A DNA stretch of 64,000 nucleotides, from positions 252,007 to 316,006 of the forward strand of contig NZ_JAPWGO010000001.1 of the NCBI RefSeq assembly GCF_027213785.1. The letters are read 5' to 3'. Each line of letters starts with the position of its first letter. Positions within the stretch are counted from its first letter, which is position 1. Both the position numbers and the translations under genes were made by a program. Below, piece after piece: positions 7,099 through 27,720 of this stretch. The notes below the pieces were generated by a model. That model saw only the letters and a program-made list of their open reading frames with translations, was not told the origin of the DNA and made no database searches. Source of the stretch: Limimaricola sp. G21655-S1. GTDB lineage: Bacteria > Pseudomonadota > Alphaproteobacteria > Rhodobacterales > Rhodobacteraceae.

Positions 7099-7142
7099 GG
7101 CGGTACCCCTTGCGCCGCGTCGGCAACGGGTGTTGCCTGAAC

Positions 7143-7176
7143 CGTGACGCCCGCTGATCGCCATCGCGGCGTCACG
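7143..7176 (+). repeat. 9-bp hairpin between sugar transferase and polymerase genes
   Basis: CGTGACGCC (7143-7151) and GGCGTCACG (7168-7176) form a perfect 9-bp stem with a 16-nt loop in the only sizeable gap near the start of the polysaccharide run. No T-tract follows. It may be an attenuator, an mRNA-stability element or a partial terminator. Confidence 0.4.
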
Positions 7177-7229
7177 ACTTCGTCCGGACATCGTGCCAAG
7201 GTCGGGATGACACGCTGAACAGGGGCCGC

Positions 7230-11364: not shown

Positions 11365-12731
11365 GCGCGGCATTGATCGGTCACCTGCGCTCGCGCGGTA
11401 TCGGTGGTCGGGCGCTGCGCTCGGCCGCGATCATCATCGCGGGTTTCGGGGCGGGGCAGGGTCTGCGCCTCATCTCCAATCTCGCGCTCACCCGGCTGCT
11501 CTTTCCCGAGGCCTTTGGCACCATGGCGATCGTCATGGTCTTCATGATGGCGCTGGGCATGTTCTCGGATGTCGGCATCTCTCCCGCGATCATGCAAAGT
11601 CGGCGTGGCGACGATCCCGATTTCCTCGACACCGCCTGGACGATCCAGATCGGCCGGGGGTTGGGATTGTGGTTTGCGGCGTTGGGCCTCGCCTGGCCCG
11701 TGGCGCAGTGGTATGGCGAGCCCGACCTCGCGCGGTATCTGCCGGTGGCGGCGCTCGCGCTGATCCTCAACGGCTTCAACCCGACCAAGCTCGAAACCGC
11801 GCACCGGCATTTGCGCGCCGGTCGCGTGACACTGATCGAGCTGGCAACCCAAAGCACCCAGCTGGTCACCGGCGTCGTTCTGGCGTGGAGCTGGGGCTCG
11901 ATCTGGGCGCTGGTGGTGGCGGGGCTGGTCGGCGCGATGGCGCAGCTCGTATATCTCAACCTGTTCCTGCCGGGGCCGCGCAACCGGCTGCGCCTCGAAC
12001 CTGCCGCCGCGCGAGAGCTGGTGCATTTCGGCAAGTGGATCTTCCTCTCGACCGTGGCAGGATTCCTGCTGGGCCAGAGCGACCGGGTGCTGCTTGGGGG
12101 CTATCTCTCACTGGCGGATTTCGGGGTCTACAATATCGGCCTGTTCCTCGCGACCTTCCCCCTGCTGCTCGGCCACTTGGTAACCCGACGTGTGCTGATC
12201 CCGGTCTACCGCGAAAGCCCGCCGGCCGAGAGCCGGGCCAATTTCCTGCGGCTTCAAAGGCTCAGGACGCTGGCGACATCGGGCCTCCTCGCGGCGACGG
12301 CGGTGCTGGCGCTGTCGGGCAACCAGCTGATCGGGGTGATGTATGACGGGCGCTACGCGATGGCGGGGGGCGTGGTGGTGCTGATGGCGGTGCTGCAGAT
12401 CCCGGTGCTGGTCGGGCTGACCTACGAGCAGGCGGCACTGGCCTCGGGGCGCTCGCGCCGTTTCTTCGTGCTGCAAGCCTCGCGCGCGGGGCTGACCATC
12501 GCCGGCCTGGCGCTGGGCCTTGCCTTGGGCGGCTTTCTTGGCGGGCTGATCGGGCAGGGCGTGGCCGCGCTGCTGGCCTACCCGGTGCTGGTCTGGGTCG
12601 CACGACGAGAGAAGGCATGGGATCCGCGCCACGACGCCTTGGCTGCTCTGGCCGGAATTGCGATCGCCGCTCTGGCCCTGACATTGAACTGGCCTGCCGT
12701 GGCAGCGCTGGCTGCGGTCGCGCCGGGATAG
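11361..12731 (+). CDS. Wzx-like polysaccharide flippase (MOP superfamily)
   Basis: A 456-aa protein with about 12-14 predicted membrane segments and the PST/MOP-type opening (GQGLRLISNLALTRLLFPEA, then FGTMAIV). It contains the QSDRVLLGGYLSLADFGVYN block that is typical of polysaccharide exporters of the Wzx class. Expected role: translocating undecaprenyl-linked repeat units to the periplasm for the polymerase. The start was taken as the GTG at 11361, which overlaps the preceding TGA; the longer frame from 11202 runs inside the preceding glycosyltransferase. A 92-nt gap then separates it from the PKS. Confidence 0.88.
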   Translation: MSAALIGHLRSRGIGGRALRSAAIIIAGFGAGQGLRLISNLALTRLLFPEAFGTMAIVMVFMMALGMFSDVGISPAIMQSRRGDDPDFLDTAWTIQIGRGLGLWFAALGLAWPVAQWYGEPDLARYLPVAALALILNGFNPTKLETAHRHLRAGRVTLIELATQSTQLVTGVVLAWSWGSIWALVVAGLVGAMAQLVYLNLFLPGPRNRLRLEPAAARELVHFGKWIFLSTVAGFLLGQSDRVLLGGYLSLADFGVYNIGLFLATFPLLLGHLVTRRVLIPVYRESPPAESRANFLRLQRLRTLATSGLLAATAVLALSGNQLIGVMYDGRYAMAGGVVVLMAVLQIPVLVGLTYEQAALASGRSRRFFVLQASRAGLTIAGLALGLALGGFLGGLIGQGVAALLAYPVLVWVARREKAWDPRHDALAALAGIAIAALALTLNWPAVAALAAVAPG

Positions 12732-12810
12732 CCAGCATGTCCGCAAGCCGGTATCCCGTCGGAAAAGTGCCGCATTCGCAGTCTAGCCAGTTTGCGCAAC
12801 CACACGGGGC

Positions 12811-12820
12811 AGGGGAAGAG
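12811..12820 (+). promoter_or_regulatory. Ribosome-binding site that fixes the PKS start
   Basis: AGGGGAAGAG lies 3-10 nt before the ATG at 12824 and is far stronger than anything before the alternative in-frame ATG at 12737, which begins 5 nt after the flippase stop. Confidence 0.5.
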
Positions 12821-12823
12821 ATC

Positions 12824-15800
12824 ATGCAGGAGGCGAAGGAACGGGATACGGGCGATATCGCCATCACCGGCATGGCCGTGGACCTGCCCGGCGCTGACAC
12901 GCTCGAGGCGTTCTGGGGGATGCTGGCGGGAGGACGCAGCGCGATCCGTCGCCTTACCCCCGAAGAACTGGCCCGTGCGGGGGTGAGCGAGTCCGAGAGC
13001 CGCCGCCCCAATTACGTCCCTTTCGGCGCGCCGCTCGCGGGGCATGACCTGTTCGATGCGGGATTCTTCGGCCTGACACCGCGCGAGGCCGAGATCATGG
13101 ATCCGCAGCACCGGCGCTTCATCGAGACGGCCTGGTCGGCGCTGGAGAACGCGGGCCATGTGCCCGAAGCTTTCGCGGGCGCGATCGGAGTCTATGCGGG
13201 CTGCGGTGCCAACGACTATTACATGCGCAACATCATGGGCAATGCGGAGCTGGTGGAGAACACCGGCGCCTTCCTGTTGCGCCATACCGGCAATGACAAG
13301 GATTTCCTCGCCACCCGTCTGGCGCACATGCTCGATCTGACCGGCCCGGCGGTCTCGGTGCAGACCGCATGTTCGACTTCGCTCGTGGCCATCCACATGG
13401 CGGCGCAGGCGCTGCTGACCGGCGAATGCGACATGGCTCTGGCGGGCGGTGTCACGATCGAACAGCCGCATGGCAGGGGCTATCTGTGGCGCGAGGGAGA
13501 GATCCTGTCGCCGGATGGGGCGTGCCGCGCCTTCGATCACCGTGCCGCCGGCACCGTGTTCGGTTCGGGCGCGGCGGCGGTGGTCCTCCGCAGGCTCGAA
13601 GACGCGCTGGCCGATGGCGACCACGTCTGGGCCGTGTTGAAGGGCAGCGCCATCAATAACGACGGTGCCCGTAAGGCCAACTACCTCGCCCCCTCGGTCG
13701 AGGGGCAGGCGCGGGCGGTGGCGATGGCCCAGCGCATGGCGGGCATCGAGGCCGGTTCCATCGGTTTCGTCGAATGCCATGGTACCGGCACGCCTCTGGG
13801 CGATCCGATCGAGGTGGCGGCGCTGACCCGTGCCTTTCGCGAAACGACCGAGGCCGCCGGCTTCTGCCGGATCGGCTCGGTCAAGACCGGGATCGGTCAC
13901 ACCGACACCGCTGCCGGCGCTACGGGACTGATCAAGGCGGCGCTGGCTCTGCACCATCGGACGATTCCCGGCACGCCGGGCTTCGAAGCGCCGAACCCGG
14001 CACTGGCGCTCGACGGATCACCCTTCGAGGTCGCGGCGGAAACGACGCCCTGGCCTCGGGGCGCCACGCCCCGCCGCGCCGGGGTCAATTCGCTCGGGGT
14101 GGGTGGCACCAATGCCCACGCGGTGCTGGAGGAGGCGCCGGAGCCCGTATCCCCGGCCGAAAGCGAGTGGCCGTTCCAGCTGCTCCGGGTCTCCGGCCGC
14201 TCCCGCGCCGCGCTCGATGCCACGGCAGCGCGACTGGCGGCGCATCTGCGCGCGCATCCCGAGCAGCCGCTGGCCGATGTGGCGCATACGCTGGCGGTCG
14301 GGCGCCGGGCGCTGCCGCATCGTCGCGTGCTCGTCGCCGAAAGCCATGCCGAGGCCGCCGCATTGCTCGAACGGTCCGATCCGCGCGCCGCGCCCACGCA
14401 TCTGGCACAGGATATGCCGGAAGTGGTGTTCATGTTCCCCGGCGGCGGCGCGCAGCAACCGGGCATGGGCCGCGATCTCTACGAAACCGAGCCGGTGTTT
14501 CGAGACTGGATCGATCGCGGCTTCGCCGCCATGGGCGCCGAGGGCAAGACGTTGCGTGCGCTGTGGGACCCGGCACCCGGCGACGAGGCGCAGGCCGAGG
14601 CCATGCTGCGCCGCCCTTCGCTGCAACTGCCGCTGCTTCTGATCGTCGAGCACGCGCTGGCGCAGCTCTGGATCGGCTGGGGCGTGATGCCGGACCGGCT
14701 GGTCGGTCATTCGATGGGCGAGAACACAGCGGCGGTGCTCGCCGGTGTCATGTCCTTCGAAGAGGGTCTGGAACTGGTGCGGATGCGCGGCACGCTGTTC
14801 GAGCGGACCGAGCCCGGCGCGATGCTTTCGGTGGCGCTCGGCGCAGATGCGCTGCGCGAGGAGTTGGGCCCCGATCTCGATCTCGCGGCGATCAACGCGC
14901 CCGGTCTCTGCGTCGCCTCGGGGCCGGTGGCCGCGATCGAGGACCTTGCGGCGCGGCTCGAGCTTCGGGGAATCGAGAGCCGTCGTGTGCCGATCGAAGT
15001 CGCCGCCCATAGCCGCCTGCTCGATCCGATCCTGCCGCGCTTCGAGGCGCATCTGCGAAGCATGACGTTGTCGCCCCCGCGCATCCCGATCATCTCTAAC
15101 CGCAGCGGCCACCTCCTGACCGATGCGGAGGCGACCGATCCCGCGTACTGGGTCGGCCATCTCCGCCATGCCGTCGATTTCGACGGGGCACTCCACAACA
15201 TGGGCGAGGCCGCGCGGATCTGCATCGAGATGGGCCCCGGCGGCGTGCTTGGCATGCTGGCCGGGCAACAACCCGGGATCGGTCATGAGCGGGTGCTGCC
15301 GGGACTGCGGCCGCCGCAGGAGCCGGGCGGCGATGACCGCTGGATGGTCTTGGCGCTGGGTCGCCTATGGGCGATGGGCGGCCGCTTCGACGAGGCGCAG
15401 CTCGCGGGCGCCGGTCGCCGCCGCCTGCCGTTGCCGGGCTATGCCTTCGAGCGGACGCGTCATCATGTCGAACCGGTCCGCTCCGTGGCTGCCCCGGCCG
15501 TGGCGCCGCCGGTGCCGCGAGAGGAGGATGTCGCGCGCTGGGCCTGGCAGCCTGCTTGGGTGCGCCGCTATCCCGAGGGCACATTCGAGGCAGGGGACGA
15601 CCTCGCGGAACTGCCGCCCGAGACCTGGCTCATCTTTCTCGATCGCACCGGGCTGGGGGCCGCCCTTGCGACGCGGCTGCGGGCTACGGGGCACCGTGTC
15701 GCGACCGTGACGGCGGCCGGGTTCGAGGCGCGCGCCGGCAGCGATAGCTGGCAGCTGCCGCCGGAGGCGGGCCAAGCGCCCGTCGAGCGCCTCTTGACGG

Positions 15801-18800
15801 CGCTTGAGCGCGAAGATCTGCTGCCGGACCGGGTGCTGCACCTGTGGAGCGTCACCGAGGCCACCGGTCCGGACCTGTCGCCGCTGCACGTCCAGTTGCT
15901 GCAGGAGCGCGGCTTCCTGAGCCTCATGCATCTCGCGCAGGCTTGGCACGCCACGCAGGGCGACAGGCCATTGCGTCTTTTGGCGGTAAGCAGCGGTGCG
16001 CATGCCGTGCGCCCGGGCGAGCGGCCCGATCCGGCCAAGGCGATGCTCGACGGGCCCGCGCTGGTGATCCCGAGGGAACTGCCGGGACTTGCCTGTTCGC
16101 GGCTCGATCTCGCGCCGCCGCGCCGCGCCACGCTTCGATCTCAGGTCGAGGCGGTGCTGGAAGAGGCGCTATCGCCGCCCGAATCCGCGCCGGTGGCTTG
16201 GCGCGACGGCATTCGCCGGGTCCGGACGCCGCAGCGCGCCGCACTCCCCGCGACGCCCAGGCTACCATTGCGTCGCGGCGGTGCGGTACTGATCACCGGC
16301 GGCCTTGGCGGTATCGGCCTGACCTTGGCCGAAACCCTGATCCGCGATTGGGACGCGCCAGTTGCGATCATCTCGCGCAGACCCCTGCCTGCGCGCGAAG
16401 ATTGGTCCAGCCATGTCGCCACGGGCGGTCCGATGTCCGAGTCGCTGCGTGCGCTGCTGCGGCTCGAGGCCTTGGGCGGGCGGATCGAAAGCTATTGCGC
16501 CGATATCACCGATCCCGATGCGATGCGCACCGCCCTTGCCGAGGCCGAGGCAAGGCTCGGTCCGATCAGCGGCGTGATCCATGCTGCCGGACGTCTTGAC
16601 GACGCGCCGGTGCTGGGCCGCGCGGCCGAGGCGAGCGAGGCGGTGATCGCGCCCAAGCTGCAAGGGCTGATGGTGCTCGACACGCTGTTCCCCGATGGTC
16701 GGCTCGACTGGATGGCCCTCTGCGCCTCCAGTTCGGCCTGGACCACTCCGGCGGGGCAGGCGGATTACGTTGCCGCAAACGCCGCACTCGACGCCTTTGC
16801 GCTGGCCCGCTCGGGCGGCGCGACTCGTGTGGTGGCGATCGACTGGGGCATCTGGGCCGATACCGGCATGGCAGCCGGGGCGGCCGTGCCGGATGCGGGA
16901 GAGGCGGCGGGCGCGCCCACTGCCCTGCCGATGCTGGAGCGTCGCGAGATCATCGAGACCGCGATCGGCGAGGAAACTGTCTTCACGGCTCGGTGGACGC
17001 CTTCCGAGCGTTGGTTTCTCGACCAGCATCGGACAAGGGCGGGTGACGCCTTGCTGCCCGGCGCGGGCTATGCCGAGCTTCTGGCCGAGGCGGTCGGCCC
17101 CGAGGGCTTCACGCCGTTCGAACTGCGCGATCTGCGGTTCTTGGCCCCGCTGCGCACGCCCGATGGCGGCGCGACCCGGCTGCGGCTGCGGCTGTCGCCG
17201 GGCGACGACGCAGGCAGGGTCGAGGTCGAGGCCGCGCCACCGGGCGAGCCATGGGGACCTGTCGCCATGGCCCGGCTGCTGGCGACAGGTGGCACACCGG
17301 GCCGCATCGATCCGGCGGCCATCGCAGCGCGGCTGCCGGCGCCCGGACCGCTGAGCCTGCCGCAGGCGGTGCATCTCGATTTCGGGGCGCAGTGGCAGGT
17401 CACGGGCGAGGCGGCGCTGAGCGAGGATGAAGGGCTGGCTCGGCTTCGGCTGCCGCCGGATGCCAGCACCGGCCTCGCGCTGCATCCGGGGCTCTTGGAC
17501 ATCGCAACCGGCTGGGCGATCGGAATGATCGCGGGCTATGATCCGGCGCGGCTCTGGGTGCCGGCGGGCTATGCGCGGCTGAGCGTCCATGCGCCGTTGC
17601 CTTCGGAGATCCTGAGCCATGTCCGGCTGGTCGAACAGGCGACCGGCAGGGCCCGGTTCGACATCGTGCTGGCCACCCTCGAGGGCGAGATTTGTGCCGA
17701 TATGTCCGGCTTCGAGCTGCACCTGCTGCCGGCGGAGGCCGGTTTTGCCGCCGGCGCGACGGCCATGACCTTGGAACAGCCAGTGCCGCAGGACCGGCTG
17801 AGCGATGCCCGCCGCCATGGCATCCGGCGCGAGGAGGGCGGGCGCGCCTTCATCGCGGCGATGGGGGCGGGGCTGTCGCAGGTCGCCATGACGGCGCAGC
17901 CGTTGCCCGCGCTGATCGGGGAGGCGGCGGTGTCGCCTCCGGCTTCGGAACCGGTCGCGCCCGCCGATCCTGTCGCCGCCGGGTTCGAGACCGAGATGGA
18001 AGCGCGGCTCGCCGCGCAATGGAGCGCGCTGCTCGGCGTGGCCGATATCGGTCCAGATGACAGCTTCTTCGACCTTGGTGGACATTCACTGATCGCGGTT
18101 CGGCTCTTCGCGGCGATAAGGCGGGAAACCGGTACCGCGCTGCCGATCTCGGCGCTGTTCGAAACGCCGACGATCCGCGGCCTCGCGGCGCGGCTTGCAG
18201 GAGACGCCTCCGCTCCGGCAGCAGTGGAGGCGACCGGAAGGCCGGGCGCGGCCCCGGCGATGATCTCCGGCCTAGGCGACGCGGTGCATCTCGTGCCGCT
18301 GAGCCAAGGCGGCCCGGGGGCGCCGCTTTTCCTCGCGGCGGGCATGTTCGGCAACGTGATGAACCTGCGTCATCTCGCGCAGCATCTGGGCGAAGACCGG
18401 CCGGTCTGGGGTCTGCAGGCACGCGGCGTCGCCGGCGATGTCCCGCCGCATCAGGATTTCGTCGCGGCGGCACGCGATTGCCTTGCCGAAATGCGTCGCG
18501 TTCATCCCGACGGGCCTTGGTTGCTAGGCGGCTATTCGGGCGGTGGCATCACGGCACTCGAAATCGCCCGGCAGCTGCGCGCAGAAGGCGACAAGGCGGA
18601 GGCGTTGCTGTTGCTCGATACGCCGCTGCCGGTCCGGCCGTCGCTAAGTCTGCGTGACCGGATCGCGATCCAGGCGATCGAGCTGCGCAGGGGAGGGCTG
18701 CGCTATCCAGCGCAGTGGGCATCGCGGCGCCTGCGCTGGGAGATCGACCGCCGCCGCTTTGGGCGAGACGCCGCGCGCCCGGTCGAAAATCAAGCGGACG

Positions 18801-19120
18801 CCGCTCTGGAAACCGCCTTCTACGTCGCCTCCGCCGCCTATAGATTGGAGCCTTGGGACGGGCCCATGACGCTGTTCCGACCGCCGCTGAAGGGGCAATG
18901 GCGATTGCCGGGCGGGCGACTAGTGAACAAGGAACGGCAATACGTGGTGCATGACAATTACTGGGGCGAATGGGCGTCCGCGCTCGAAGTGGTCGAAGTG
19001 CCGGGCGATCACGACACCATGGTGCTCGAACCCAATGCGCGCGCTCTCGCGGCCCGGATGAAGGCGGCGCTCGAAAGCGCCGTCGCTGGGGACGTGCCGA
19101 AACTACATGCGGCGGAGTAG
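12824..19120 (+). CDS. Type I polyketide synthase, KS-AT-KR-DH-ACP-TE
   Basis: A 2098-aa single-module PKS. The KS (about 10-430) has the Cys183-His319-His359 triad (TACSTS, HGTGT, GIGHTDTAAG). The AT (about 530-830) has GHSMGE with Ser630, and VAAHSR in place of HAFH/YASH, so its extender unit cannot be assigned. The KR (about 1150-1350) has the NADPH loop TGGLGGIG, Tyr1315, and LDD in AGRLDDAPV, the signature of B-type stereochemistry. A DH-like double hot-dog region (about 1385-1660) has His1402 and Asp1559, but spacing HRTRAGDALLP and Gly where DxxxQ normally ends. The ACP Ser1755 is in DLGGHSL; the thioesterase Ser1905 is in GYSGG with a late His in GDHDT. The usual reducing order places DH before KR, so this order is atypical. 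The TE suggests that it releases its own product. ATG 12824 was chosen for its strong Shine-Dalgarno site. Confidence 0.93.
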   Translation: MQEAKERDTGDIAITGMAVDLPGADTLEAFWGMLAGGRSAIRRLTPEELARAGVSESESRRPNYVPFGAPLAGHDLFDAGFFGLTPREAEIMDPQHRRFIETAWSALENAGHVPEAFAGAIGVYAGCGANDYYMRNIMGNAELVENTGAFLLRHTGNDKDFLATRLAHMLDLTGPAVSVQTACSTSLVAIHMAAQALLTGECDMALAGGVTIEQPHGRGYLWREGEILSPDGACRAFDHRAAGTVFGSGAAAVVLRRLEDALADGDHVWAVLKGSAINNDGARKANYLAPSVEGQARAVAMAQRMAGIEAGSIGFVECHGTGTPLGDPIEVAALTRAFRETTEAAGFCRIGSVKTGIGHTDTAAGATGLIKAALALHHRTIPGTPGFEAPNPALALDGSPFEVAAETTPWPRGATPRRAGVNSLGVGGTNAHAVLEEAPEPVSPAESEWPFQLLRVSGRSRAALDATAARLAAHLRAHPEQPLADVAHTLAVGRRALPHRRVLVAESHAEAAALLERSDPRAAPTHLAQDMPEVVFMFPGGGAQQPGMGRDLYETEPVFRDWIDRGFAAMGAEGKTLRALWDPAPGDEAQAEAMLRRPSLQLPLLLIVEHALAQLWIGWGVMPDRLVGHSMGENTAAVLAGVMSFEEGLELVRMRGTLFERTEPGAMLSVALGADALREELGPDLDLAAINAPGLCVASGPVAAIEDLAARLELRGIESRRVPIEVAAHSRLLDPILPRFEAHLRSMTLSPPRIPIISNRSGHLLTDAEATDPAYWVGHLRHAVDFDGALHNMGEAARICIEMGPGGVLGMLAGQQPGIGHERVLPGLRPPQEPGGDDRWMVLALGRLWAMGGRFDEAQLAGAGRRRLPLPGYAFERTRHHVEPVRSVAAPAVAPPVPREEDVARWAWQPAWVRRYPEGTFEAGDDLAELPPETWLIFLDRTGLGAALATRLRATGHRVATVTAAGFEARAGSDSWQLPPEAGQAPVERLLTALEREDLLPDRVLHLWSVTEATGPDLSPLHVQLLQERGFLSLMHLAQAWHATQGDRPLRLLAVSSGAHAVRPGERPDPAKAMLDGPALVIPRELPGLACSRLDLAPPRRATLRSQVEAVLEEALSPPESAPVAWRDGIRRVRTPQRAALPATPRLPLRRGGAVLITGGLGGIGLTLAETLIRDWDAPVAIISRRPLPAREDWSSHVATGGPMSESLRALLRLEALGGRIESYCADITDPDAMRTALAEAEARLGPISGVIHAAGRLDDAPVLGRAAEASEAVIAPKLQGLMVLDTLFPDGRLDWMALCASSSAWTTPAGQADYVAANAALDAFALARSGGATRVVAIDWGIWADTGMAAGAAVPDAGEAAGAPTALPMLERREIIETAIGEETVFTARWTPSERWFLDQHRTRAGDALLPGAGYAELLAEAVGPEGFTPFELRDLRFLAPLRTPDGGATRLRLRLSPGDDAGRVEVEAAPPGEPWGPVAMARLLATGGTPGRIDPAAIAARLPAPGPLSLPQAVHLDFGAQWQVTGEAALSEDEGLARLRLPPDASTGLALHPGLLDIATGWAIGMIAGYDPARLWVPAGYARLSVHAPLPSEILSHVRLVEQATGRARFDIVLATLEGEICADMSGFELHLLPAEAGFAAGATAMTLEQPVPQDRLSDARRHGIRREEGGRAFIAAMGAGLSQVAMTAQPLPALIGEAAVSPPASEPVAPADPVAAGFETEMEARLAAQWSALLGVADIGPDDSFFDLGGHSLIAVRLFAAIRRETGTALPISALFETPTIRGLAARLAGDASAPAAVEATGRPGAAPAMISGLGDAVHLVPLSQGGPGAPLFLAAGMFGNVMNLRHLAQHLGEDRPVWGLQARGVAGDVPPHQDFVAAARDCLAEMRRVHPDGPWLLGGYSGGGITALEIARQLRAEGDKAEALLLLDTPLPVRPSLSLRDRIAIQAIELRRGGLRYPAQWASRRLRWEIDRRRFGRDAARPVENQADAALETAFYVASAAYRLEPWDGPMTLFRPPLKGQWRLPGGRLVNKERQYVVHDNYWGEWASALEVVEVPGDHDTMVLEPNARALAARMKAALESAVAGDVPKLHAAE

Positions 19121-19126
19121 CGCGCG

Positions 19127-20095
19127 ATGACATCTGTTCTGACGGTGATCCTGAACTGGCGCACGCCGGAGATGACACTGCGCGCCGCCGAAAGCGCGGT
19201 GGCCGCGATGGCCGGGATCGAGGGCGGGATCGTGATCGTCGACAACGATTCCGGCGATGGCTCGGAAGAGCGGCTGCGCGCCGGCGTGGCCGCGCGCGGC
19301 TGGGGGGACCGGGTGCGCGTGGTGCAATCCGGCCGCAATGGTGGCTTCGGCGCGGGCAACAACGCGGGCATCCGCGACGCCCTCGCCAAGGGCGAGCGTC
19401 CGGACCTTGTCTACATCCTCAACTCCGACGCCTTTCCCGAGCCCGGGGCGATCGCCGCTCTCGTCAAGCACTTGGCGGACCATCCCGCGGCTGGTCTTGC
19501 CGGGAGCCTGATAAGCGATCCGGACGGCACGCCGCATCTCGCGGCCTTCCGCTTTCCCTCGCTCTTGTCCGAGATCGAGGGACCGTTGCGTTTCGGCCCT
19601 GTCTCGCGGCTTTTGTCGCGACGAAGGGTATGGATGGAGGTGCCGGAGCAGACCTGTCGGGTGGACTGGGTCTCGGGGGCCAGCCTGATGATCCGGCACG
19701 AACTGTTCGAGCGGATCGGCGGTTTCGACGAAACCTTCTTTCTCTACTTCGAGGAAACCGACCTTTGTCGCCGCGCGCGCGACGCGGGCTTCGAGACCCA
19801 TTTCGTGCGCGAAAGCCGCGTCACCCATATCGGATCGGTCTCGACCAGGATGAACGAGTGGCGCCGCGTTCCCGACTACTGGTTCGAGTCGCGCCGGCAC
19901 TATTTCCGCAAGCATCACGGCGATGCGGGTGCGGCCGTAGCGACGCTGCTGCATCTCGCGGCAGGGGGGCTTCACCGGCTTCGCTGCGTTGCGATGCGGC
20001 GCGATCCGGGCGATCCGCCGCGATATCTGCGCGACTTGCTGCGTCACGAATTGCGTCATTTGCGGGCGACCCGGGCAAGGGAGGAGGCGGCATGA
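19127..20095 (+). CDS. Glycosyltransferase family 2 (rhamnosyltransferase-like) between PKS and NRPS
   Basis: A 322-aa enzyme beginning MTSVLTVILNWRTPEMTLRA. It has VIVDNDSGDGS and YILNSDAFPEPGAIA (NSD replacing DxD), and the acceptor/base motif GGFDETFFLYFEETDLCRRA that is common in dTDP-rhamnosyl and related transferases. It starts 6 nt after the PKS stop behind a GGAG site, and its stop overlaps the NRPS start (ATGA). Such tight placement between the PKS and NRPS suggests that it glycosylates the product of one of them or acts on the same repeat unit, which is inference. Confidence 0.87.
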   Translation: MTSVLTVILNWRTPEMTLRAAESAVAAMAGIEGGIVIVDNDSGDGSEERLRAGVAARGWGDRVRVVQSGRNGGFGAGNNAGIRDALAKGERPDLVYILNSDAFPEPGAIAALVKHLADHPAAGLAGSLISDPDGTPHLAAFRFPSLLSEIEGPLRFGPVSRLLSRRRVWMEVPEQTCRVDWVSGASLMIRHELFERIGGFDETFFLYFEETDLCRRARDAGFETHFVRESRVTHIGSVSTRMNEWRRVPDYWFESRRHYFRKHHGDAGAAVATLLHLAAGGLHRLRCVAMRRDPGDPPRYLRDLLRHELRHLRATRAREEAA

Positions 20096-23000
20096 GCGGC
20101 AGCGTTGCACTGATCGGCGCCACCGCGTTGAGCCTCGAGGCCGCGCGGTCGCTGCGCGAAGCGGGTTTTCGGCTGGCGCTGGTGGCGAGCCGCTACCCGG
20201 AACTGGATGCCTTCGCCGAGGAGCACGGCATTCCCCGGCACGATCCCGACCGGCTCGACGACCTGCCCGAGGGCATCGACTGGCTTCTCAGCGCCGGGAA
20301 TCTCGACTTGGTGCCGGCCCCCGCGCTGGCGCGCTTCGCCGCAGGCGCCATCAATTTTCATGATGGACCGCTGCCCGAGAGGGTCGGGCGCAATGCGCCG
20401 GTCTGGGCGCTGCTCGAAGGCGCACGTCGCCATGCGGTGACGTGGCACATGATGACGCCGGGCGTGGATGCGGGGGACATCCTGATCCGTCGGGATTTCG
20501 ACATCGACCCGGACGAGACCGCGCAGAGCCTCAATGCCCGTTGCTTTGCGCTGGCGCTCGAAACCCTGCCGGAGTTGATCGATCAGATGCGCCACGGGCT
20601 CCGGCGCCGACCGCAGCCTGCGATGGAAGGCCGGATGCACCGCGCCGCCGACCGGCCGGATGCAGATGCGCTGATCGACGGGCGTGGCCCGGTCGATGCG
20701 GCACTGCGATTAGTCCGGGCGCTCGATCACGGTGCGCATCCGAACCCGCTCTGCTGCCCCAAGCTCTCGCATGAAGGTCGGTTGCTGCTGATCGGCACGG
20801 CGCAGCTGCTGGAGTCAAGGGCGCAGCCCGAACCGCCCGGCACGATCCGCGCGGCCATGGGCGACGCGTTGGAGCTGGTCTTCGAAGACGGTGTGCTGCG
20901 GCTTTCGGGACTATCTCGGCCAGATGGGGCGCCAGTCGCGCTGCCCAAGGCCGGTACCCGGTTGGCGCCGATCCGCGACGCTGCGGCGCTCACCATGCGT
21001 ATGCAGCATGTCGCACGGGCCGAGCAGGGCTGGCGAAGGCGATTGGAGGCGCTGCGTCCGGTGCCGCTGCCCGGCCTCGCGACGGCTCTTCCGATGCGTC
21101 CCGACATGGCTGAGGAGCGCCGGGCGCTCGAACCGCGTGGGTCGGCGCGCCTTCGCGCCGCGGCCTGGGCGCTGCTGGCGGCGCGGCTCTGCGACGGTGC
21201 GGCCGATCTGGCGCTGGTTCGGCCCGCCGCAGAAGACCCTCATGTGGCGGGCTGGGTTCCCCTGCGTGTCATTCCGGAACCGGGAGAAAGCCTGTCGCGC
21301 TTCGCCGACCGGTTCGACGCGGAAATGCGCGCCGCATGCGCCGAAGACGGTTTCGCGGCGGATCTGCCGATGCGGCTGGGCCTCGTCCCGCCCGCCTTGG
21401 CACTGGGGCCGACGCGGCCGCCCGGGGCGCGTCTCGGCTTCGATCCCGAGTCTGGCATCCTGCGAGCGGCGGGCGGCACGCTGCTACCCGGTGCGCTGGA
21501 TCTGCTCGCGGCGCGGCTCATGGCCATGATCGATGCCGATCCCGATACGGCCTGCACGGCGCTGCCCGCGATGTCGCCGGGCGAACGCGCTTTGCTTCTC
21601 GAGGACTGGAACGACACTGCGGGTCCGGTGCCCGAGGGGACGATTCACGCCGCCATCGCCCGTCGCGCCGCCACCGCGCCGGAGGCCGTCGCGCTGGTCT
21701 TCGGTGAGGAGCGCCTCACCCATGCGGAACTGGAGGCGCGCTCCAACCGCATGGCGCGGGTGCTGCGCGAAATGGGGGCGGGCCCGGGCATGCGCGTCGG
21801 GCTGCATATGGGCCGCTCGACCGAGATGGTGGTGGCGGCGCTGGCGGTCATGAAGTCCGGCGCCGCCTATCTGCCGCTCGACCCGGCCTATCCGCGCGAA
21901 CGGCTCGCGCTCTATCTCGAAGACAGCTCTGCCGCGATCGTGGTCAGCGCCCCCGAGATCGCGTCGGATCTGCCGGCCGGCGAGGCGGCATTGCTGCGGC
22001 TCGACGACCCGCGACTGGACACGGCCGAGGCCGCGCCGCTCGATGAGGCCGCCACGGGTTCGGATCTTGCCTATCTGATCTATACCTCGGGCTCCACGGG
22101 CCGCCCCAAGGGGGTGATGATCGAGCACCGCCACGTGCTGAATTTCTTCGAAGGGATGGACGAGCGGGTGCCGCACCGTCCCGGCGACGCGCTGCTCGCC
22201 GTCACCTCGATCTCTTTCGATATCTCGGTGCTCGAACTGTTCTGGTCCTTGTCGCGCGGCCTCAAGGTCGTGGTCCAGGGCGACGAAGAGCGGCTCTTGA
22301 CCTCCTCGGAGACGACGCCGGTGACCGCTGTGGCCGGGCCGTCGCTGAGCCTGTTCTACTGGGGCCACGAGGCGGGGGACACGGACGACTATTCCCTGTT
22401 GCTCGACGGGGCCCGCTTTGCCGACGCGCATGGGTTCGAGGCGGTCTGGACGCCCGAGCGGCATTTCCACGGCTTCGGCGCGGCCTATCCCAACCCGGCG
22501 GTGACCGGTGCGGCGGTGGCGGCCGTCACCTCGTATGTGGCGATCCGCGCGGGCAGCTGCGTCGCGCCGCTGCACCACCCGGCGCGGATCGCCGAGGACT
22601 GGGCGGTGATCGACCGGCTGTCGGGCGGGCGTGCAGGGGTGGCGCTGGCGGCGGGCTGGCAGCCTCAGGACTTCGTGCTGCGCCCCGAGGCGGCGCCGCC
22701 CGCCAACCGCAAGGCGCTGCGCGACGCGGCCGATGCCGTGCGCCGTCTGTGGCGGGGCGAAGCGGTGGCCTTTCCCGACGCGGCAGGCGATATGCAGGAG
22801 GTTCTGACCCGACCGCGCCCGGTCTCGTCAGAGCTGCCCTTGTGGATCACCGTTGCGGGCAACCCCGCGAGCTGGCGCGAGGCGGGGCTGGCGGGCGCCA
22901 ACGTGCTGACGCATCTTCTGGGCCAGAGCGTCGCGGATCTGTCCTCGCGGATCGCCGAATGGCGCGCTGCGCTGGTCGAGGCTGGGCACGATCCGGCGTC

Positions 23001-24663
23001 GCGGCGGGTGACGGTGATGCTGCACACCTATCTCGCCGAGAGCCGCGCCGCCGCCCTCGAGGTGGCGCGCGGCCCGATGATCGATTACCTGCGCTCGGCC
23101 AACGGGCTCATTGCGCGACATGCCGCGGAATTCCCGGCGTTTCGTCGTGGAAGGGGCGATGCGGTCGACCCCGGCGCCTTGACTCCCGAAGAGGAAACGG
23201 CGGTCCTCGACCACGCCTTCGAACGGTATTTCGAAGAGCAGGGGCTTTTCGGCACAGTCGAAGACGGCTTGGCCCGGATCAAGATGCTGCAGGCTGCCGG
23301 GGTGGACGAGATCGCCTGCCTGATCGATTTCGGGATCGCACCGGCTCAGGTGATGGAGGGGCTGCCGCGCCTCGCGGCGCTGGCGCAGCCGGGACGTCCT
23401 GCGGTCGATGATGCCGGGCCACCCCCGAGCGACCGGTCGATCGCGGCGCAGATCCGCCGCCATGGTATCACCCATCTGCAATGCACCCCCTCGATGGCCC
23501 GGATGCTTGCCGCCGACGCGGTGAGCCGCGCCGCGCTGGGAGGTTTGCGGCACATGCTCGTGGGCGGCGAGGCGCTGCCCGCCGCGCTGGTCGAGGAATT
23601 GCGCGGAGCCGGGGTCATGCATCTGGAAAACATGTACGGTCCGACCGAGACCACGATCTGGTCCACCAGCGCCACGATAGAGGCGGGTCTGCCGGCCTCG
23701 GTGATCGGTCGGCCGATCCGCAACACCCGGACCTATGTACTCGACGCGCAGATGTCGCCCTGCCCGGTGGGGGCGGAAGGCGAGCTGTGGATCGGCGGCG
23801 CGGGCGTGGCGCGCGGTTATTGGGAGCGGGCCGAACTGACCGCCGAGCGGTTCCGCCCCGACCCCTTCCGGCCGGGCGAGCGGATCTACCGAACCGGGGA
23901 TCTCGCACGCTGGCGCTCCGATGGGGTGCTCGATTTCATCGGCCGCGCCGATGGGCAGGTGAAGCTTCGCGGCCACCGGATCGAGTTGGGCGAGGTCGAA
24001 GCGGCCCTCGACGCGATCTCGGGTTTTGGCCCCTGCGTCGCCGTGATGCGCGAGGACACTCCCGGCGATACGCGGCTCGTGGCATATCTGGAGACCACGG
24101 AGACAATCGACGAGGCGGAGTTGCGACGCGAACTGGCGACGCGTCTGCCGGCGATCATGGTGCCGACGCGGATCGTTGCTCTCGAGCGGTTTCCGCTGAC
24201 GCCCAATCGCAAGACCGACCGCGCCGCCTTGCCGCCGCCGCCGGCACACCGTGCCGCAGTCTCGTCCACGCCCATGCCCGCAGACCCTGCGCCGAGCCCG
24301 GCAACCATCAAGGTCGCGGGCTTGCGTCGCGGTGCCGCCGCAACCGAGATCGCGGAGATCTGGCGGGAGCTTCTGGGGATCGAGGCCGTTTCGCCGAACG
24401 ATAGTTTCTTCGATCTCGGCGGCCATTCCCTGCTGGCGGTGCGGGCGCATCGCGAAATTCGCGATCGGCTCGGCCTGCCGGATCTGAGGATCACCGATAT
24501 CTTCGGCCTGCCGCGCCTGGCCGATCTCGCGGCCCGGATCGAGGCGGAGCTGACCGCGCCCGAGGCCGCCGAACCGGTCGCACCGCTCGCTTCGGCGAAT
24601 GCACGGGACGAGATCATGGCGCGCCGCAGGCAGCTGCGGGCCCGGCGCCAAGGTCTTGGTTGA
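20092..24663 (+). CDS. NRPS: formyltransferase - partial C - A(split by luciferase-like monooxygenase) - PCP
   Basis: A 1523-aa protein of the Atu3671/MupA-like architecture. Residues 1-200 resemble methionyl-tRNA formyltransferase, with the Asn88-His90-Asp126 catalytic set (INFHDGPLP, TPGVDAGD). Residues about 300-500 look like the second half of a condensation domain, with no HHxxxDG. The adenylation domain starts near 530 (YIYTSGSTG-type core LIYTSGSTGRPKGV near 662). It is interrupted after the SISFDISVLELFW segment by a luciferase-like flavin monooxygenase (about 744-1110) and resumes to MYGPTETTIW near 1181. The carrier Ser1446 lies in GGHSLLAV. There is no TE. Hand alignment of specificity residues gives D-I-L-Q-L-G-M-I-W-K, close to known glycine codes. 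The ATG overlaps the previous gene's TGA and has a GGGAGGAGG site upstream. Confidence 0.9.
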   Translation: MSGSVALIGATALSLEAARSLREAGFRLALVASRYPELDAFAEEHGIPRHDPDRLDDLPEGIDWLLSAGNLDLVPAPALARFAAGAINFHDGPLPERVGRNAPVWALLEGARRHAVTWHMMTPGVDAGDILIRRDFDIDPDETAQSLNARCFALALETLPELIDQMRHGLRRRPQPAMEGRMHRAADRPDADALIDGRGPVDAALRLVRALDHGAHPNPLCCPKLSHEGRLLLIGTAQLLESRAQPEPPGTIRAAMGDALELVFEDGVLRLSGLSRPDGAPVALPKAGTRLAPIRDAAALTMRMQHVARAEQGWRRRLEALRPVPLPGLATALPMRPDMAEERRALEPRGSARLRAAAWALLAARLCDGAADLALVRPAAEDPHVAGWVPLRVIPEPGESLSRFADRFDAEMRAACAEDGFAADLPMRLGLVPPALALGPTRPPGARLGFDPESGILRAAGGTLLPGALDLLAARLMAMIDADPDTACTALPAMSPGERALLLEDWNDTAGPVPEGTIHAAIARRAATAPEAVALVFGEERLTHAELEARSNRMARVLREMGAGPGMRVGLHMGRSTEMVVAALAVMKSGAAYLPLDPAYPRERLALYLEDSSAAIVVSAPEIASDLPAGEAALLRLDDPRLDTAEAAPLDEAATGSDLAYLIYTSGSTGRPKGVMIEHRHVLNFFEGMDERVPHRPGDALLAVTSISFDISVLELFWSLSRGLKVVVQGDEERLLTSSETTPVTAVAGPSLSLFYWGHEAGDTDDYSLLLDGARFADAHGFEAVWTPERHFHGFGAAYPNPAVTGAAVAAVTSYVAIRAGSCVAPLHHPARIAEDWAVIDRLSGGRAGVALAAGWQPQDFVLRPEAAPPANRKALRDAADAVRRLWRGEAVAFPDAAGDMQEVLTRPRPVSSELPLWITVAGNPASWREAGLAGANVLTHLLGQSVADLSSRIAEWRAALVEAGHDPASRRVTVMLHTYLAESRAAALEVARGPMIDYLRSANGLIARHAAEFPAFRRGRGDAVDPGALTPEEETAVLDHAFERYFEEQGLFGTVEDGLARIKMLQAAGVDEIACLIDFGIAPAQVMEGLPRLAALAQPGRPAVDDAGPPPSDRSIAAQIRRHGITHLQCTPSMARMLAADAVSRAALGGLRHMLVGGEALPAALVEELRGAGVMHLENMYGPTETTIWSTSATIEAGLPASVIGRPIRNTRTYVLDAQMSPCPVGAEGELWIGGAGVARGYWERAELTAERFRPDPFRPGERIYRTGDLARWRSDGVLDFIGRADGQVKLRGHRIELGEVEAALDAISGFGPCVAVMREDTPGDTRLVAYLETTETIDEAELRRELATRLPAIMVPTRIVALERFPLTPNRKTDRAALPPPPAHRAAVSSTPMPADPAPSPATIKVAGLRRGAAATEIAEIWRELLGIEAVSPNDSFFDLGGHSLLAVRAHREIRDRLGLPDLRITDIFGLPRLADLAARIEAELTAPEAAEPVAPLASANARDEIMARRRQLRARRQGLG

Positions 24664-25312
24664 GCTTGCCGCCCTGATCGAGAGGCTTGGCGGTACTGGC
24701 ACCGCCGCCGCGGTGGTGCGCATCGGTGCCGGACATGTGCTCTGGCCCGAAGAGGCGCCAGCCATGGCGCGGGCCCGTCCCGCCCGGCAAGCGGAGTTCG
24801 CCGCCGGGCGGGCGGCGGCGCGGCTGGCGATGGAACGGCTCGACCTGCCGCCGCGGGCGGTCCCGATGGGACCGGATCGCGCGCCTGTCTGGCCCCAGGG
24901 GATGCACGGCTCGATCAGCCATGATGACGGCCTCGCGGTGGCCGCTCTATGCCGGGGGGGCGATCTCGGTCTGGATCTGTCCGCCGCCTTGCCGCTGGAG
25001 CCCGCGCTCTGGCCCGAGATCGTCCTTCCGGGCGAAATCGAGGTCACCGGGCTGGAGCCGGGCCTTGCGGCCCGGCTCGTCTTCGGGGCCAAGGAGGCTG
25101 CCTACAAGGCGCAATATCCTCGGAGCCGTGCCCTGCTCGGCTTCGATGCCATGCGCGTTCAGGTCACGGGCGAGGGCCTTGCGGCACGGCTGTTGCGAAC
25201 GGCCGGACCTTATGGGGCCGGGACCGTATTTCGCGGGGGGTGGGGGATATGTTCCGATCGCCTGATCGTGGTCATGCGGGCGCCGCCCGGGTTTCGCGGC
25301 CTGCAACAGTGA
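24656..25312 (+). CDS. 4'-phosphopantetheinyl transferase (EntD/Sfp-like)
   Basis: About 218 aa. It should convert the apo carrier domains (PKS Ser1755, NRPS Ser1446) to holo form by adding the CoA phosphopantetheine arm. Motifs are RQAEFAAGRAAARLAM, HGSISHDDGLAVAAL, LGLDLS (Mg-binding Asp within the usual GIDIE position) and FGAKEAAYKAQYP (the FSxKEAxYK signature). The start is uncertain: the frame opens well inside the NRPS gene, and the nearest start is TTG at 24656, overlapping the NRPS TGA by 8 nt; GTG at 24715 is an alternative. Its position directly after the NRPS marks it as dedicated to this cluster. Confidence 0.85.
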   Translation: MVELAALIERLGGTGTAAAVVRIGAGHVLWPEEAPAMARARPARQAEFAAGRAAARLAMERLDLPPRAVPMGPDRAPVWPQGMHGSISHDDGLAVAALCRGGDLGLDLSAALPLEPALWPEIVLPGEIEVTGLEPGLAARLVFGAKEAAYKAQYPRSRALLGFDAMRVQVTGEGLAARLLRTAGPYGAGTVFRGGWGICSDRLIVVMRAPPGFRGLQQ

Positions 25313-25432
25313 GTTGACCGGGCGGTTCGCCATGGTCAGATGATGCCCGAGGCCCTAGATTGTGGCTTGGGTGTGGCGGAAATTGGACCGGCGCGGGTGG
25401 CCTTCGGCCCTCGCGACGAACGGGAGCTGGTC

Positions 25433-26701
25433 ATGGAACATCTTGCCTCACTGCGCGACCTGCGCGGCGCGCTGCGCCGCCGGGCTTGGGCCATCGCCCT
25501 TGTCTGCGTTCTGGGAATTCCATTCGTTCTCTGGTTCGCGATGACGCGTCCGCCGGTCTTTCAGGCAACGGCGGTGATCCAGATCGAGACGCCGCTGGTC
25601 GATGCCGGGGGCGACGCCGCCGTCATCGCCGACACGCAGCTCGACCTGATCGAGCAGCAGGTGATGGCGCGCGAGAAGATCCTCGAACTGGCCGAGCGGT
25701 TCGATCTGTTCGCCCTCTTGCCGCCGCATGAGCGGCTGGTGCAGACCCGCGCCTCGATCGAGATCACCAAGCTGGTGAACCCGGCCTTGGCCTGGCGCCC
25801 CGAAACCGTGCCCTCCGGCTTGTCGATCACGGTCGAACTCGACGAGCCACAGCTGGCTGCCGATCTCGCCAATGCCCTGTTGCAAGAGATCGTTACCGCC
25901 GCGCAGAGCCGGCGCGAGGGCCGCACGGCGCGCACGCTCGATTTCTTCGAAAGCGAGGAGGCGCGGCTCGGCGCGGAACTGGCCGCGCTCGAGGAGGAGT
26001 TCGCGCGGTTCCAAGAGGCCCGCTTCGACTCGCTGCCCGGCAGCCTTCCGGCCCAGCGCGAACAGCTCTCGGGGCTCGTGGCGCAGCGGATCGACCTCGA
26101 ACAGCAGATCATCGCCTTCGAGACCAGTTCGGACCGGCTGCGGGAGGACGAGCTGACGCGTCGCCGCAGCCTGCTCGAACAGCAACGGCAGCTGATCGCC
26201 GACAATATCGCCCGGATCGAGGCGGCACTCGCGGCCGCGCCTGAGACCGAGCGCCGCTACAACGATTTCGTGCGCCGCCGCGAACAGCTGCAGCAGGCGC
26301 TCTCGGCGGTCACCGCCCGGCGCACAGAGGCCGCGATGGCGCAGCTGCTCGAAAGCCGTGACGAGACCACGCGCTTCGAGATCCTCGAACGGGCGGTGCC
26401 GCCCGATTACGCGGTCTCCTCCTCGCGCCGAAAGATCGCGGTCGCAGGCGGGTTCGGCGTGCTTCTGGCGGCGCTCGGCCTCGCGCTTTCGCTCGAGGCG
26501 GTGAACCCGCAGATCCGCACCGCCGCGCAGATGGAGCGGGCGCTCGGCGTGCGGCCCGTCGTGGTGATTCCCGAATTGGATCGGCGTCAGGCGCGGCGTC
26601 GCGCCCGGGCAGCGCAGCGGCGGGATGCCGGGCGTTTTCTGGGGATTTGGGGCCGGCTGCGCAGCGGCATGCGGGGGTGGTGGCGCCGGTTGCCGATCTG
26701 A
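25433..26701 (+). CDS. GumC/Wzz-like polysaccharide chain-length/co-polymerase protein
   Basis: A 422-aa inner-membrane protein with a Wzz-type arrangement: TM1 at about residues 18-40 (AWAIALVCVLGIPFVLWFA), a long periplasmic coiled coil (about 140-330, rich in EEARLGAEL-like heptads), and TM2 near 368-390 after PPDYAVSSSRRK. It has no fused kinase domain; the tail after TM2 is short and strongly basic. It should control glycan length together with the polymerase and the convergent ATPase gene. The start at 25433 follows GGGAGCTGGTC; the upstream ATG at 25340 adds 31 residues outside the family domain. It ends 4 nt before the end of the opposite-strand ATPase gene. Confidence 0.85.
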   Translation: MEHLASLRDLRGALRRRAWAIALVCVLGIPFVLWFAMTRPPVFQATAVIQIETPLVDAGGDAAVIADTQLDLIEQQVMAREKILELAERFDLFALLPPHERLVQTRASIEITKLVNPALAWRPETVPSGLSITVELDEPQLAADLANALLQEIVTAAQSRREGRTARTLDFFESEEARLGAELAALEEEFARFQEARFDSLPGSLPAQREQLSGLVAQRIDLEQQIIAFETSSDRLREDELTRRRSLLEQQRQLIADNIARIEAALAAAPETERRYNDFVRRREQLQQALSAVTARRTEAAMAQLLESRDETTRFEILERAVPPDYAVSSSRRKIAVAGGFGVLLAALGLALSLEAVNPQIRTAAQMERALGVRPVVVIPELDRRQARRRARAAQRRDAGRFLGIWGRLRSGMRGWWRRLPI

Positions 26702-26705: not shown

Positions 26706-27635
26706 CTAGCCGCTGCCCGAGGCGCGGTCCTCCTCGGCACGGTTCAGGATCATGCCGAGGATCGGCTTGTCCTCGCCGATGCGGCGCACGGCTTCGCGGA
26801 TCTGCTCGGCGCTGTTGTGGCCGCCGCCCACTACCATCAACACGCAGTCGTAGCGGCTTCGGAACGCGGTCACGTCGTCCTGGCTCAGCGCGGGGGGCAG
26901 GTCGAACAGCACCGCGTCGGGGGCGATCTCCTCTTGCATCTGGTCGAGCACGGCCGCGGTCTTGGGGTCCTGCAGCAGCTCGGCCGCATAGGTCTCGGAA
27001 CGGTCGTTGAGGCCGACCGCGAGCCCGCCGATGCCAAGCAGGTTCTGCCCGACGCGCTGCAACTGGGTGCTGCTGGACGTGGCACCGCGCAACCAGTCGG
27101 CGATCGGTCCCGGCGCCGGTGCGCCCAGAACCTCGGCGAGTCCCGGCGCCCTCAGGTCGAGATCGAGCAGCACGGTGCGGCGGTTTTCATAGCGCGACAA
27201 GGCGATGGCGAGATTGGCGGCGGTGAAGGTCTTGCCACAGCCCCGCGTCGGTGACGTGATCGCCACACGCTTCCAACCATGCTCGTCGAGCGCCTGCAGC
27301 AGGCGGGTCCGCAGCAGGTCGAAGGCGGTATGGGCGGGGTCGCGGCGACTTGCGGTGATGACGAGGTTGCTCTCGAGGACGGCTTCGTTCACCGGAATCC
27401 GGCGCAGGCTGCCCCACAGGTCATGCAGCTGCGGCAGCCGGACTTCGTCCTTGCCCAGCACGGCGGCGCGCAGCGCCCGGGTGGTGTCGTCGGTCTCGGC
27501 CGGGGCTGGCCCGGCGGGCGAGGGAGACGCGGGCTTTGGCTGCAGCGCCGCGATCCGGTCGAGAATCGCCGTGCGCGCCCCGGGCTCAAGCCGCCTCCGT
27601 CCGTCGCGCCTGCTGCGTTCGCTCATCTCCGCCAT
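26706..27635 (-). CDS. CpsD/BY-kinase-like ATPase of the polysaccharide locus
   Basis: About 309 aa. It has an extended Walker A (SPTRGCGKTFTAANLA), Walker A' (TVLLDLDLRAPGLAEVLG) and Walker B-like VLFDLPPAL, in the order found in bacterial tyrosine kinases that partner with Wzz/GumC proteins. The first about 120 residues are a Pro/Ala-rich linker and a short conserved part (LWGSLRRIPVNEAVLESN). There is no C-terminal tyrosine cluster: the tail is NRAEEDRASGSG, so classical autophosphorylation may be absent. It is transcribed convergently with its presumed partner gene. The start is ambiguous among GTG 27644, ATG 27635 and ATG 27626. Confidence 0.8.
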   Translation of the reverse strand: MAEMSERSRRDGRRRLEPGARTAILDRIAALQPKPASPSPAGPAPAETDDTTRALRAAVLGKDEVRLPQLHDLWGSLRRIPVNEAVLESNLVITASRRDPAHTAFDLLRTRLLQALDEHGWKRVAITSPTRGCGKTFTAANLAIALSRYENRRTVLLDLDLRAPGLAEVLGAPAPGPIADWLRGATSSSTQLQRVGQNLLGIGGLAVGLNDRSETYAAELLQDPKTAAVLDQMQEEIAPDAVLFDLPPALSQDDVTAFRSRYDCVLMVVGGGHNSAEQIREAVRRIGEDKPILGMILNRAEEDRASGSG

Positions 27636-27720
27636 TCCCGTCACCGGCCAAATCGGCGCGAGGATAGACCGGAAACGGGGGCGAGAATAAGCCCCGATCG
27701 GGCCGTGCCCGGCGCGGTGG

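Follow-up and report, generated by a model that had tools for sequence, protein, structure and literature searches.

A polyketide synthase (PKS) and a nonribosomal peptide synthetase (NRPS) encoded in the middle of a polysaccharide locus raise the question whether they belong to the polysaccharide pathway and, if so, what they could contribute to the glycan. Such an arrangement is found in the 64,000-nt stretch of DNA analyzed in this work (Limimaricola sp. G21655-S1, contig NZ_JAPWGO010000001.1, positions 252,007-316,006), which is further called the window and to whose positions all coordinates refer. Genes for a PKS, a family 2 glycosyltransferase (GT2), an NRPS and a 4'-phosphopantetheinyl transferase (PPTase) occupy positions 12824-25312 of one strand and are flanked by genes for a Wzx flippase and a Wzz/GumC protein. 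The comparative analyses indicate that this block and the polysaccharide genes very likely constitute one functional system. The coordinates and strand of the block and its position between the flippase and the chain-length gene, as reported in an earlier note on this DNA, were confirmed. The block and the genes most relevant to the comparisons are as follows:

7230-8624, + strand, membrane protein with a WaaL/Wzy-type fold (further called Wzy-like), probable polymerase or ligase (fold comparison)
8621-10528, + strand, large RTX-repeat protein (HemolysinCabind the only match)
11361-12731, + strand, Wzx-type flippase (Polysacc_synt_3, 1.3e-47)
12824-19120, + strand, type I PKS (Pfam domains, active sites)
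19127-20095, + strand, GT2 between the PKS and the NRPS, read as a polysaccharide glycosyltransferase (Pfam, neighborhood, sister loci)
20092-24663, + strand, NRPS read as a loading module with formyltransferase (FT), half of a condensation (C) domain, adenylation (A) domain with an inserted monooxygenase (MOx), and thiolation (T) domain (domain profiles)
24656-25312, + strand, PPTase with a TTG start (4PPT_N, 3.2e-23; ACPS domain, 23.5 bits, below the cut-off of 25)
25433-26701, + strand, Wzz/GumC-type chain-length protein (PF02706, 27.6 bits, cut-off 25.5; TIGR03007, 4.8e-25, below cut-off)

The description of these genes as mostly overlapping holds for GT2/NRPS and NRPS/PPTase (overlaps of 4 and 8 nt, respectively), but not for Wzx/PKS, PKS/GT2 and PPTase/GumC, which are separated by gaps of 92, 6 and 120 nt; an in-frame ATG for the PKS is also present at 12617. 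The Wzx/Wzy-pathway parts present at the locus are an initiating phosphoglycosyltransferase, the Wzx flippase, and the chain-length protein with its tyrosine kinase partner.

Conservation and co-inheritance of the block in Rhodobacteraceae

The sample screened for the block comprised 198 Rhodobacteraceae genomes, approximately one per genus. Genomes were scored as NRPS-positive when they gave a match of at least 300 bits, which was the case for 73 of them (some of these matches being partial), and 90 of the 198 matched at 1e-50; the presence thresholds were not uniform among the NRPS, GT2, Wzy-like, Wzx and RTX genes. Gene order was compared in 59 of the 62 near-full-length places (from 57 genomes), three on short contigs being left out. 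The order PKS-GT2-NRPS on one strand was found in 55 of the 59 loci, at least one polysaccharide marker was present in the stretch in 55, and a window-like PPTase in 49. Two layouts prevailed. In 23 loci the flippase gene immediately precedes the block, as in the window, and in 27 the Wzy-like gene is found nearby on the same strand. Culturable relatives with the locus include Ruegeria conchae, Paracoccus marcusii, Shimia marina, Salipiger abyssi and Tropicibacter naphthalenivorans.

The presence of the NRPS was closely matched by that of its partner genes across the 198 genomes:

GT2: both 70, NRPS only 3, GT2 only 3, neither 122
Wzy-like: both 68, NRPS only 5, Wzy-like only 7, neither 118
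Wzx: both 67, NRPS only 6, Wzx only 4, neither 121
RTX: both 65, NRPS only 8, RTX only 5, neither 120

Since the Fisher test is blind to kinship, a tree of a single gene product, UvrC, was built for 101 chosen tips of the 198 (51 NRPS-positive and 50 NRPS-negative). Discordant tips numbered 3 for GT2 and 7 for each of the Wzy-like, Wzx and RTX genes, whereas simulations of independent gain and loss gave a mean of about 50, and none of the 2000 was as low as observed. Parsimony gave 25 changes on the UvrC tree (with shuffled labels the mean was 34.1 and the lowest value 26), a number inflated by the error of a single-gene tree. A CitMHS gene (4009-5892) was unusable as a co-occurrence control, being found in 190 of the 198 genomes, and the tree-based simulation was used instead.

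Distances were determined for 61 of the 73 NRPS-positive genomes (12 partial or fragmented ones were omitted, and G126 and G132 are represented by one copy each), bearing in mind that a different contig in a draft assembly need not mean a distant location. The Wzy-like gene lies near the NRPS in 50 of 60 genomes, Wzx in 48 of 59, and RTX in 42 of 58. Partners located on the same contig but remote from the NRPS were Wzx at 1.49 Mb (G034) and 1.87 Mb (G055), the Wzy-like gene at 178 kb (G088) and 419 kb (G072), and RTX at 165-586 kb (G034, G175 and G121). The Wzy-like count of nearby genes includes a partial match in G082, 22 kb from the NRPS. The link between the NRPS and its partners seems to exceed physical neighborhood. 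Synteny across Rhodobacterales, the check proposed in the earlier note, revealed that the block is conserved as a unit, and the co-occurrence and the tree-aware test agree with this, so its assignment to the polysaccharide system is borne out by all three. As for the opposite pattern, in which the polysaccharide genes would close up without the block in most relatives, it was not observed: 68 of the 75 genomes with a Wzy-like gene also hold the NRPS. The other pattern that the earlier note named as counting against it was observed, as the PKS-NRPS pair does stand without recognized polysaccharide neighbors in some distant phyla.

Homologs beyond the family

Among 385 genomes of the class, only seven matched the NRPS at 1e-150, and five of these belong to Rhodobacteraceae, including that of the window itself. 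In a scan of genome contigs, evaluated for the best 80 of 593 matches to the NRPS, the FT-A-MOx-T architecture followed by a PKS was found in Rhodopirellula maiorica, Acanthopleuribacter pedis (where one gene separates the NRPS and the PKS), Chloroflexi, Comamonadaceae, and others. The PKS gene lies downstream of the NRPS gene on the same strand in loci L147, L148, L150, L156, L170, L181, L187 and L194, and after one intervening gene in L151. A family 4 glycosyltransferase is encoded near the pair in Ruegeria (L187) and a PMT-type transferase in Comamonadaceae (L181). A Rhizobiales group (Shinella, Aminobacter, Agrobacterium, Rhizobium and Aureimonas) has polysaccharide genes on both sides of the PKS and NRPS genes, though arranged in a different order.

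In a tree of 56 rows, a group of 45 (SH-aLRT 100) contains 38 of the 39 polysaccharide-labelled rows, whereas of 17 rows with a stand-alone label 10 fall outside it. Some of these stand-alone labels reflect short contigs or the limited set of markers used (L146 and L155); UGD, GalE and one polysaccharide protein are encoded in L147, and in L082 Wzy-like and Wzx genes lie about 8-16 kb away.

Several further variants of the pair were observed. L092 (G185), L096 (G126) and L153 create a small NRPS-PKS clade inside Rhodobacterales without a GT2 beside the pair; divergent Wzx, GT2 and Wzy-like genes lie 13-21 kb from the NRPS on the same contig in G126 and on a different contig in G185. On a Deinococcus plasmid (L124, 8639-15024), the formyltransferase has its own gene, which precedes those of the A-MOx-T protein and the PKS, with a FemAB/GNAT-like gene adjoining and capsule genes around. 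In R. maiorica (L150), a ferrochelatase gene (7916-8986) is located directly upstream of the stand-alone pair.

Domain architecture of the PKS and the NRPS

The PKS has the domain order KS-AT-KR-DH-ACP-TE, in which KR precedes DH, and judging from its sequence it is one module closed by a TE. All domains listed below were delimited with Pfam:

12854-14134, + strand, KS
14426-15247, + strand, AT
16280-16861, + strand, KR
16952-17740, + strand, DH
18005-18196, + strand, ACP
18323-19024, + strand, TE

The catalytic residues, noted previously as intact, were found in the window and are conserved, with few exceptions, across the 109 PKS and 114 NRPS rows aligned, the window being among them. In the PKS, the KS residues C, H and H each occur in 109/109 rows, the KR residues in 109/109 (S), 108/109 (Y) and 108/109 (N), those of the DH in 109/109 (H) and 108/109 (D), and those of the TE in 106/109 (S) and 105/109 (H). 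The second DH motif has G at the usual Q/H position in 103 of the 109 rows.

The NRPS is composed of one module, as claimed earlier, but it also contains two elements that had gone unmentioned, i.e., a half C domain and a luciferase-like monooxygenase that splits the A domain:

20092-20961, + strand, formyltransferase with its C-terminal domain, FMT/ArnA-like (Formyl_trans_N; profile against PDB 5uai, 3.5e-33, and ArnA, 1.4e-31)
21109-21636, + strand, C-terminal half of a condensation domain and linker, N-terminal half missing (profile)
21634-22311, + strand, N-terminal part of the A domain, up to just past motif A4 (Pfam AMP-binding)
22345-23382, + strand, luciferase-like monooxygenase inside the A domain (TIGR04020, 438.9 bits, cut-off 244.45)
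23428-24246, + strand, C-terminal part of the A domain (Pfam)
24346-24540, + strand, thiolation domain (Pfam)

The formyltransferase domain also matched FMT/ArnA in Foldseek (E about 1e-20), and its residues N88, H90 and D126 are kept in 114, 113 and 112 of the 114 rows, respectively. The nearest solved sequence to the inserted monooxygenase is PuwE (6ket, 1e-92). Upstream of the A domain, an intact condensation domain was not found, only the C-terminal half (profile positions 340-548 align to EntF 239-477, E 1.6e-07); as the NRPS lacks both a complete C domain and a TE, it reads as a loading module. The specificity residues of the A domain, assigned by eye, are D-I-L-Q-L-G-M-I-W-K, one letter different from DILQLGLIWK, which we take to be a glycine code. 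D, I, L, Q, G and W are invariant in the 114 rows and M, I and K occur in 111, 108 and 112 of them; only the fifth position is variable (M in 60, L in 29, F in 19).

Proposed product and alternative explanations

In the reading that we put forward, to which we give an even chance, the PKS-NRPS pair supplies a Wzx/Wzy-type polysaccharide with a small acyl group derived from N-formylglycine. Glycine would be loaded on the T domain, the FT would N-formylate it, the inserted monooxygenase would oxidize its alpha carbon, and the PKS would extend this starter with malonate, in one round unless it is iterative, with reduction and perhaps dehydration. The TE would then move the short acyl chain onto a sugar on a nucleotide or lipid carrier, the PPTase would activate both carrier domains, and the GT2 would add a sugar, possibly the acylated one. 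Finally, the unit would be flipped by Wzx and polymerized by the WaaL-fold protein, with Wzz and CpsD setting the length. For covalent attachment of the product to the glycan our confidence is equally divided, and the exact chemistry is proposed tentatively.

Several observations weigh against this reading. The distant flippases or RTX proteins (46-50% identity; the remote flippases of G034 and G055 are 46-49% identical to the window Wzx) may be paralogues, and joint transfer of the cluster could explain part of the co-occurrence; copies of the locus on plasmids of Ruegeria and Paracoccus suggest a possible route of such movement. In the Rhodobacterales loci L092 and L096 the pair occurs without an adjoining GT2. 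In Rhodopirellula, Acanthopleuribacter and Ardenticatenaceae, it has no recognized polysaccharide neighbors (3, 3 and 2 neighbors, respectively, were scanned with Pfam), and such stand-alone pairs in distant phyla imply that an NRPS-PKS of this kind is able to work without a glycan. Furthermore, no sugar acyltransferase was recognized as a constant member of the locus, the unannotated recurrent gene clusters being only partly scanned, and transfer by the TE is therefore assumed. An acyltransferase-3 cluster recurs in 9 of the 118 stretches compared (including the window, and with the two stretches of one genome counted separately).

The main rival, which we regard as possible though doubtful, is that the product is a free small molecule (e.g., a metal ligand or a signal) residing in the matrix, co-inherited with the polysaccharide genes but not covalently bound. 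The stand-alone pairs of distant phyla fit this explanation, as does the TE that the PKS carries for release, and an amino acid modified by both a formyltransferase and a monooxygenase could become an N-formyl-hydroxylamine chelator. However, a polysaccharide-type GT2 is embedded between the PKS and the NRPS in the great majority of the Rhodobacteraceae loci, and the NRPS is jointly present or absent with the flippase, polymerase-like and RTX genes, even when these are dispersed. Nor was an exporter or siderophore receptor noticed among the recurrent clusters, where none was specifically searched for.

PKSs of the RkpA/WcbR type are regarded as the source of an anchor or starter moiety in capsule loci, and by analogy the product of the window block could be a lipid-like anchor or a starter for the polysaccharide. 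This we consider improbable. It is in accordance with PMC3908369, according to which the capsule clusters of alpha- and betaproteobacteria include type I PKS genes (wcbR/rkpA) next to those for the biosynthesis and export of the polysaccharide. However, the locus has its own WbaP-like phosphoglycosyltransferase for priming, and an amino-acid-loading NRPS with one KR/DH PKS module without ER predicts a short polar chain. Moreover, KpsC and KpsS had no match among the locus proteins scanned, a genome-wide search for Kps partners not having been made.

Role of the GT2 encoded between the PKS and the NRPS

The GT2 gene is located no more than 40 kb from the NRPS in 60 of the 61 positioned genomes, and three of the 70 genomes with both genes (G118, G147 and G185) carry a divergent GT2 only. 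Seven genomes without the NRPS at the threshold used have a divergent Wzy-like gene (sister loci L206-L212 of G077, G104, G092, G137, G080, G174 and G189, respectively). The approximately 20-kb stretches around this gene showed neither a PKS nor an NRPS, and relatives of the GT2 (32-38% identical) lie near it in six of the seven, i.e., L206-L209, L211 and L212, but not L210. As the sister loci keep a GT2 relative without PKS or NRPS, the GT2 is probably, on the strength of these homologies, a polysaccharide glycosyltransferase. A close relative of it was seen neither between the PKS and the NRPS in Rhizobiales loci (in Agrobacterium, L144, different GT2s are located there) nor beside the pair in other phyla.

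The option, raised in the earlier note, that the GT2 glycosylates the polyketide-peptide and the polysaccharide genes are incidental is disfavored and most improbable, for although the GT2 is constantly close to the NRPS and usually lies between it and the PKS, its relatives persist in the sister loci, no close one accompanies the pair in Rhizobiales or elsewhere, and the tree test indicates that the polysaccharide genes are not incidental.

Comparison with known systems and significance

The arrangement had been called unusual, which fits the open-licence literature searched, where no description of a PKS-NRPS within a Wzx/Wzy locus was found (this does not prove its absence from print), but within Rhodobacteraceae it is the rule for such loci. 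In excerpts of PMC4062626, PMC3910554 and PMC11225332, roseobacter PKS/NRPS genes are mentioned without a tie to polysaccharide. PKSs in capsule loci, glycine A-MOx modules and FT initiation modules are known separately; for a Wzx/Wzy locus in which all of these are combined as near-constant members, no precedent was found in the literature searched.

As in RkpA/WcbR capsule clusters, a type I PKS is encoded among polysaccharide genes; unlike in those, the block adds an NRPS with formyltransferase and monooxygenase, a GT2 and a PPTase, the PKS ends in a TE of its own, and the locus contains Wzx, a WaaL/Wzy-fold protein and Wzz. The monooxygenase inside the A domain, with T following, resembles that of the myxothiazol and melithiazol synthetases, but their modules end the chain and release an amine or amide, whereas the window NRPS looks like a start module and differs from them in having an FT, only half of a C domain, and a PKS partner. 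According to an excerpt of PMC11342130, the monooxygenase in glycine A domains hydroxylates the alpha carbon, whereupon the N-C bond is cleaved and glyoxylate is left bound to the T domain. Similarity to the LgrA initiation module of linear gramicidin lies in the N-terminal FT with its N/H/D residues, followed by A and T; unlike in LgrA, the window FT is nearer to full FMT/ArnA with a C-terminal domain, a monooxygenase is inserted in A, and a half C domain and a PKS partner are present. With GumC/CpsD-type Wzx/Wzy loci the window shares the phosphoglycosyltransferase, Wzx, the WaaL/Wzy-fold protein, Wzz/GumC, CpsD and several glycosyltransferases, but here the PKS, NRPS and PPTase are near-constant members and no Wza-type gene was recognized in the locus, the same genome having four Poly_export matches on other contigs.

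We consider it plausible, with slightly less than even confidence, that dedicated NRPS-PKS lines represent a general means of polysaccharide decoration, in which such a line supplies a Wzx/Wzy glycan with its acyl substituent in roughly one third of the Rhodobacteraceae genera sampled. Oxidized formylglycine chemistry would then provide a group that binds metals or is reactive (N-acyl-hemiaminal or glyoxylyl). If so, this group could crosslink or chelate in the matrix. Judged by annotation, the PKS and NRPS genes would be taken for an orphan cluster that adjoins a common type of exopolysaccharide locus, whereas joint inheritance points to one pathway in dozens of genera. Were the group carried on the glycan, it would represent a polysaccharide substituent of a new kind, the precursors of which (glycine, a formyl unit and malonate) can be predicted, the locus would nearly amount to a substituent pathway of a new kind, and a function would be hinted at for a PKS/NRPS family spanning several phyla.

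Other genes of the locus

Further genes of the polysaccharide locus are as follows:

6268-7098, + strand, phosphoglycosyltransferase (Bac_transf, WbaP/EPS_sugtrans-like), probable initiator on undecaprenyl phosphate (PF02397, 3.7e-55; TIGR03022, 252.6 bits, below cut-off)
10525-11364, + strand, glycosyltransferase family 2 (Pfam)
26706-27644, - strand, CpsD-like tyrosine autokinase/ATPase partner (CbiA; TIGR03018, 4.5e-25, below cut-off)
27721-28692, - strand, glycosyltransferase family 2 (Pfam)
28692-29933, - strand, glycosyltransferase family 4, EpsE-like (NF041876, 215.9 bits, below cut-off)
29930-30871, - strand, NAD-dependent epimerase/dehydratase (PF01370)
30859-32112, - strand, Gfo/Idh/MocA oxidoreductase (PF01408)
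32153-32905, + strand, WecG/TagA/CpsF glycosyltransferase (PF03808, 3.6e-44; cluster in 54 of the 118 stretches)

An ABC pair is encoded at 32508-34720, and the cluster of its ATPase recurs in 8 of the 118 stretches. A promoter scan of positions 6001-26000 gave 0 sites, and the 10 terminators found there (7.6 expected) were uninformative.

The Wzy-like protein belongs to a family recognized by no Pfam or NCBIfam model, even though it is encoded in 75 of the 198 Rhodobacteraceae genomes. A profile search against PDB sequences gave no match, and only the fold comparison was informative; the WaaL/Wzy-type fold, which the earlier note had not mentioned, is the basis for regarding it as a probable polymerase (or ligase). 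The RTX-tailed protein (635 aa) has no other known domain; it co-occurs with the NRPS in 65 of the 73 genomes and is sometimes encoded far from it. In several loci of the second layout, a hypothetical protein without a Pfam or NCBIfam match is encoded after the PPTase (L117, 21315-22253), and it clusters with the RTX protein family.

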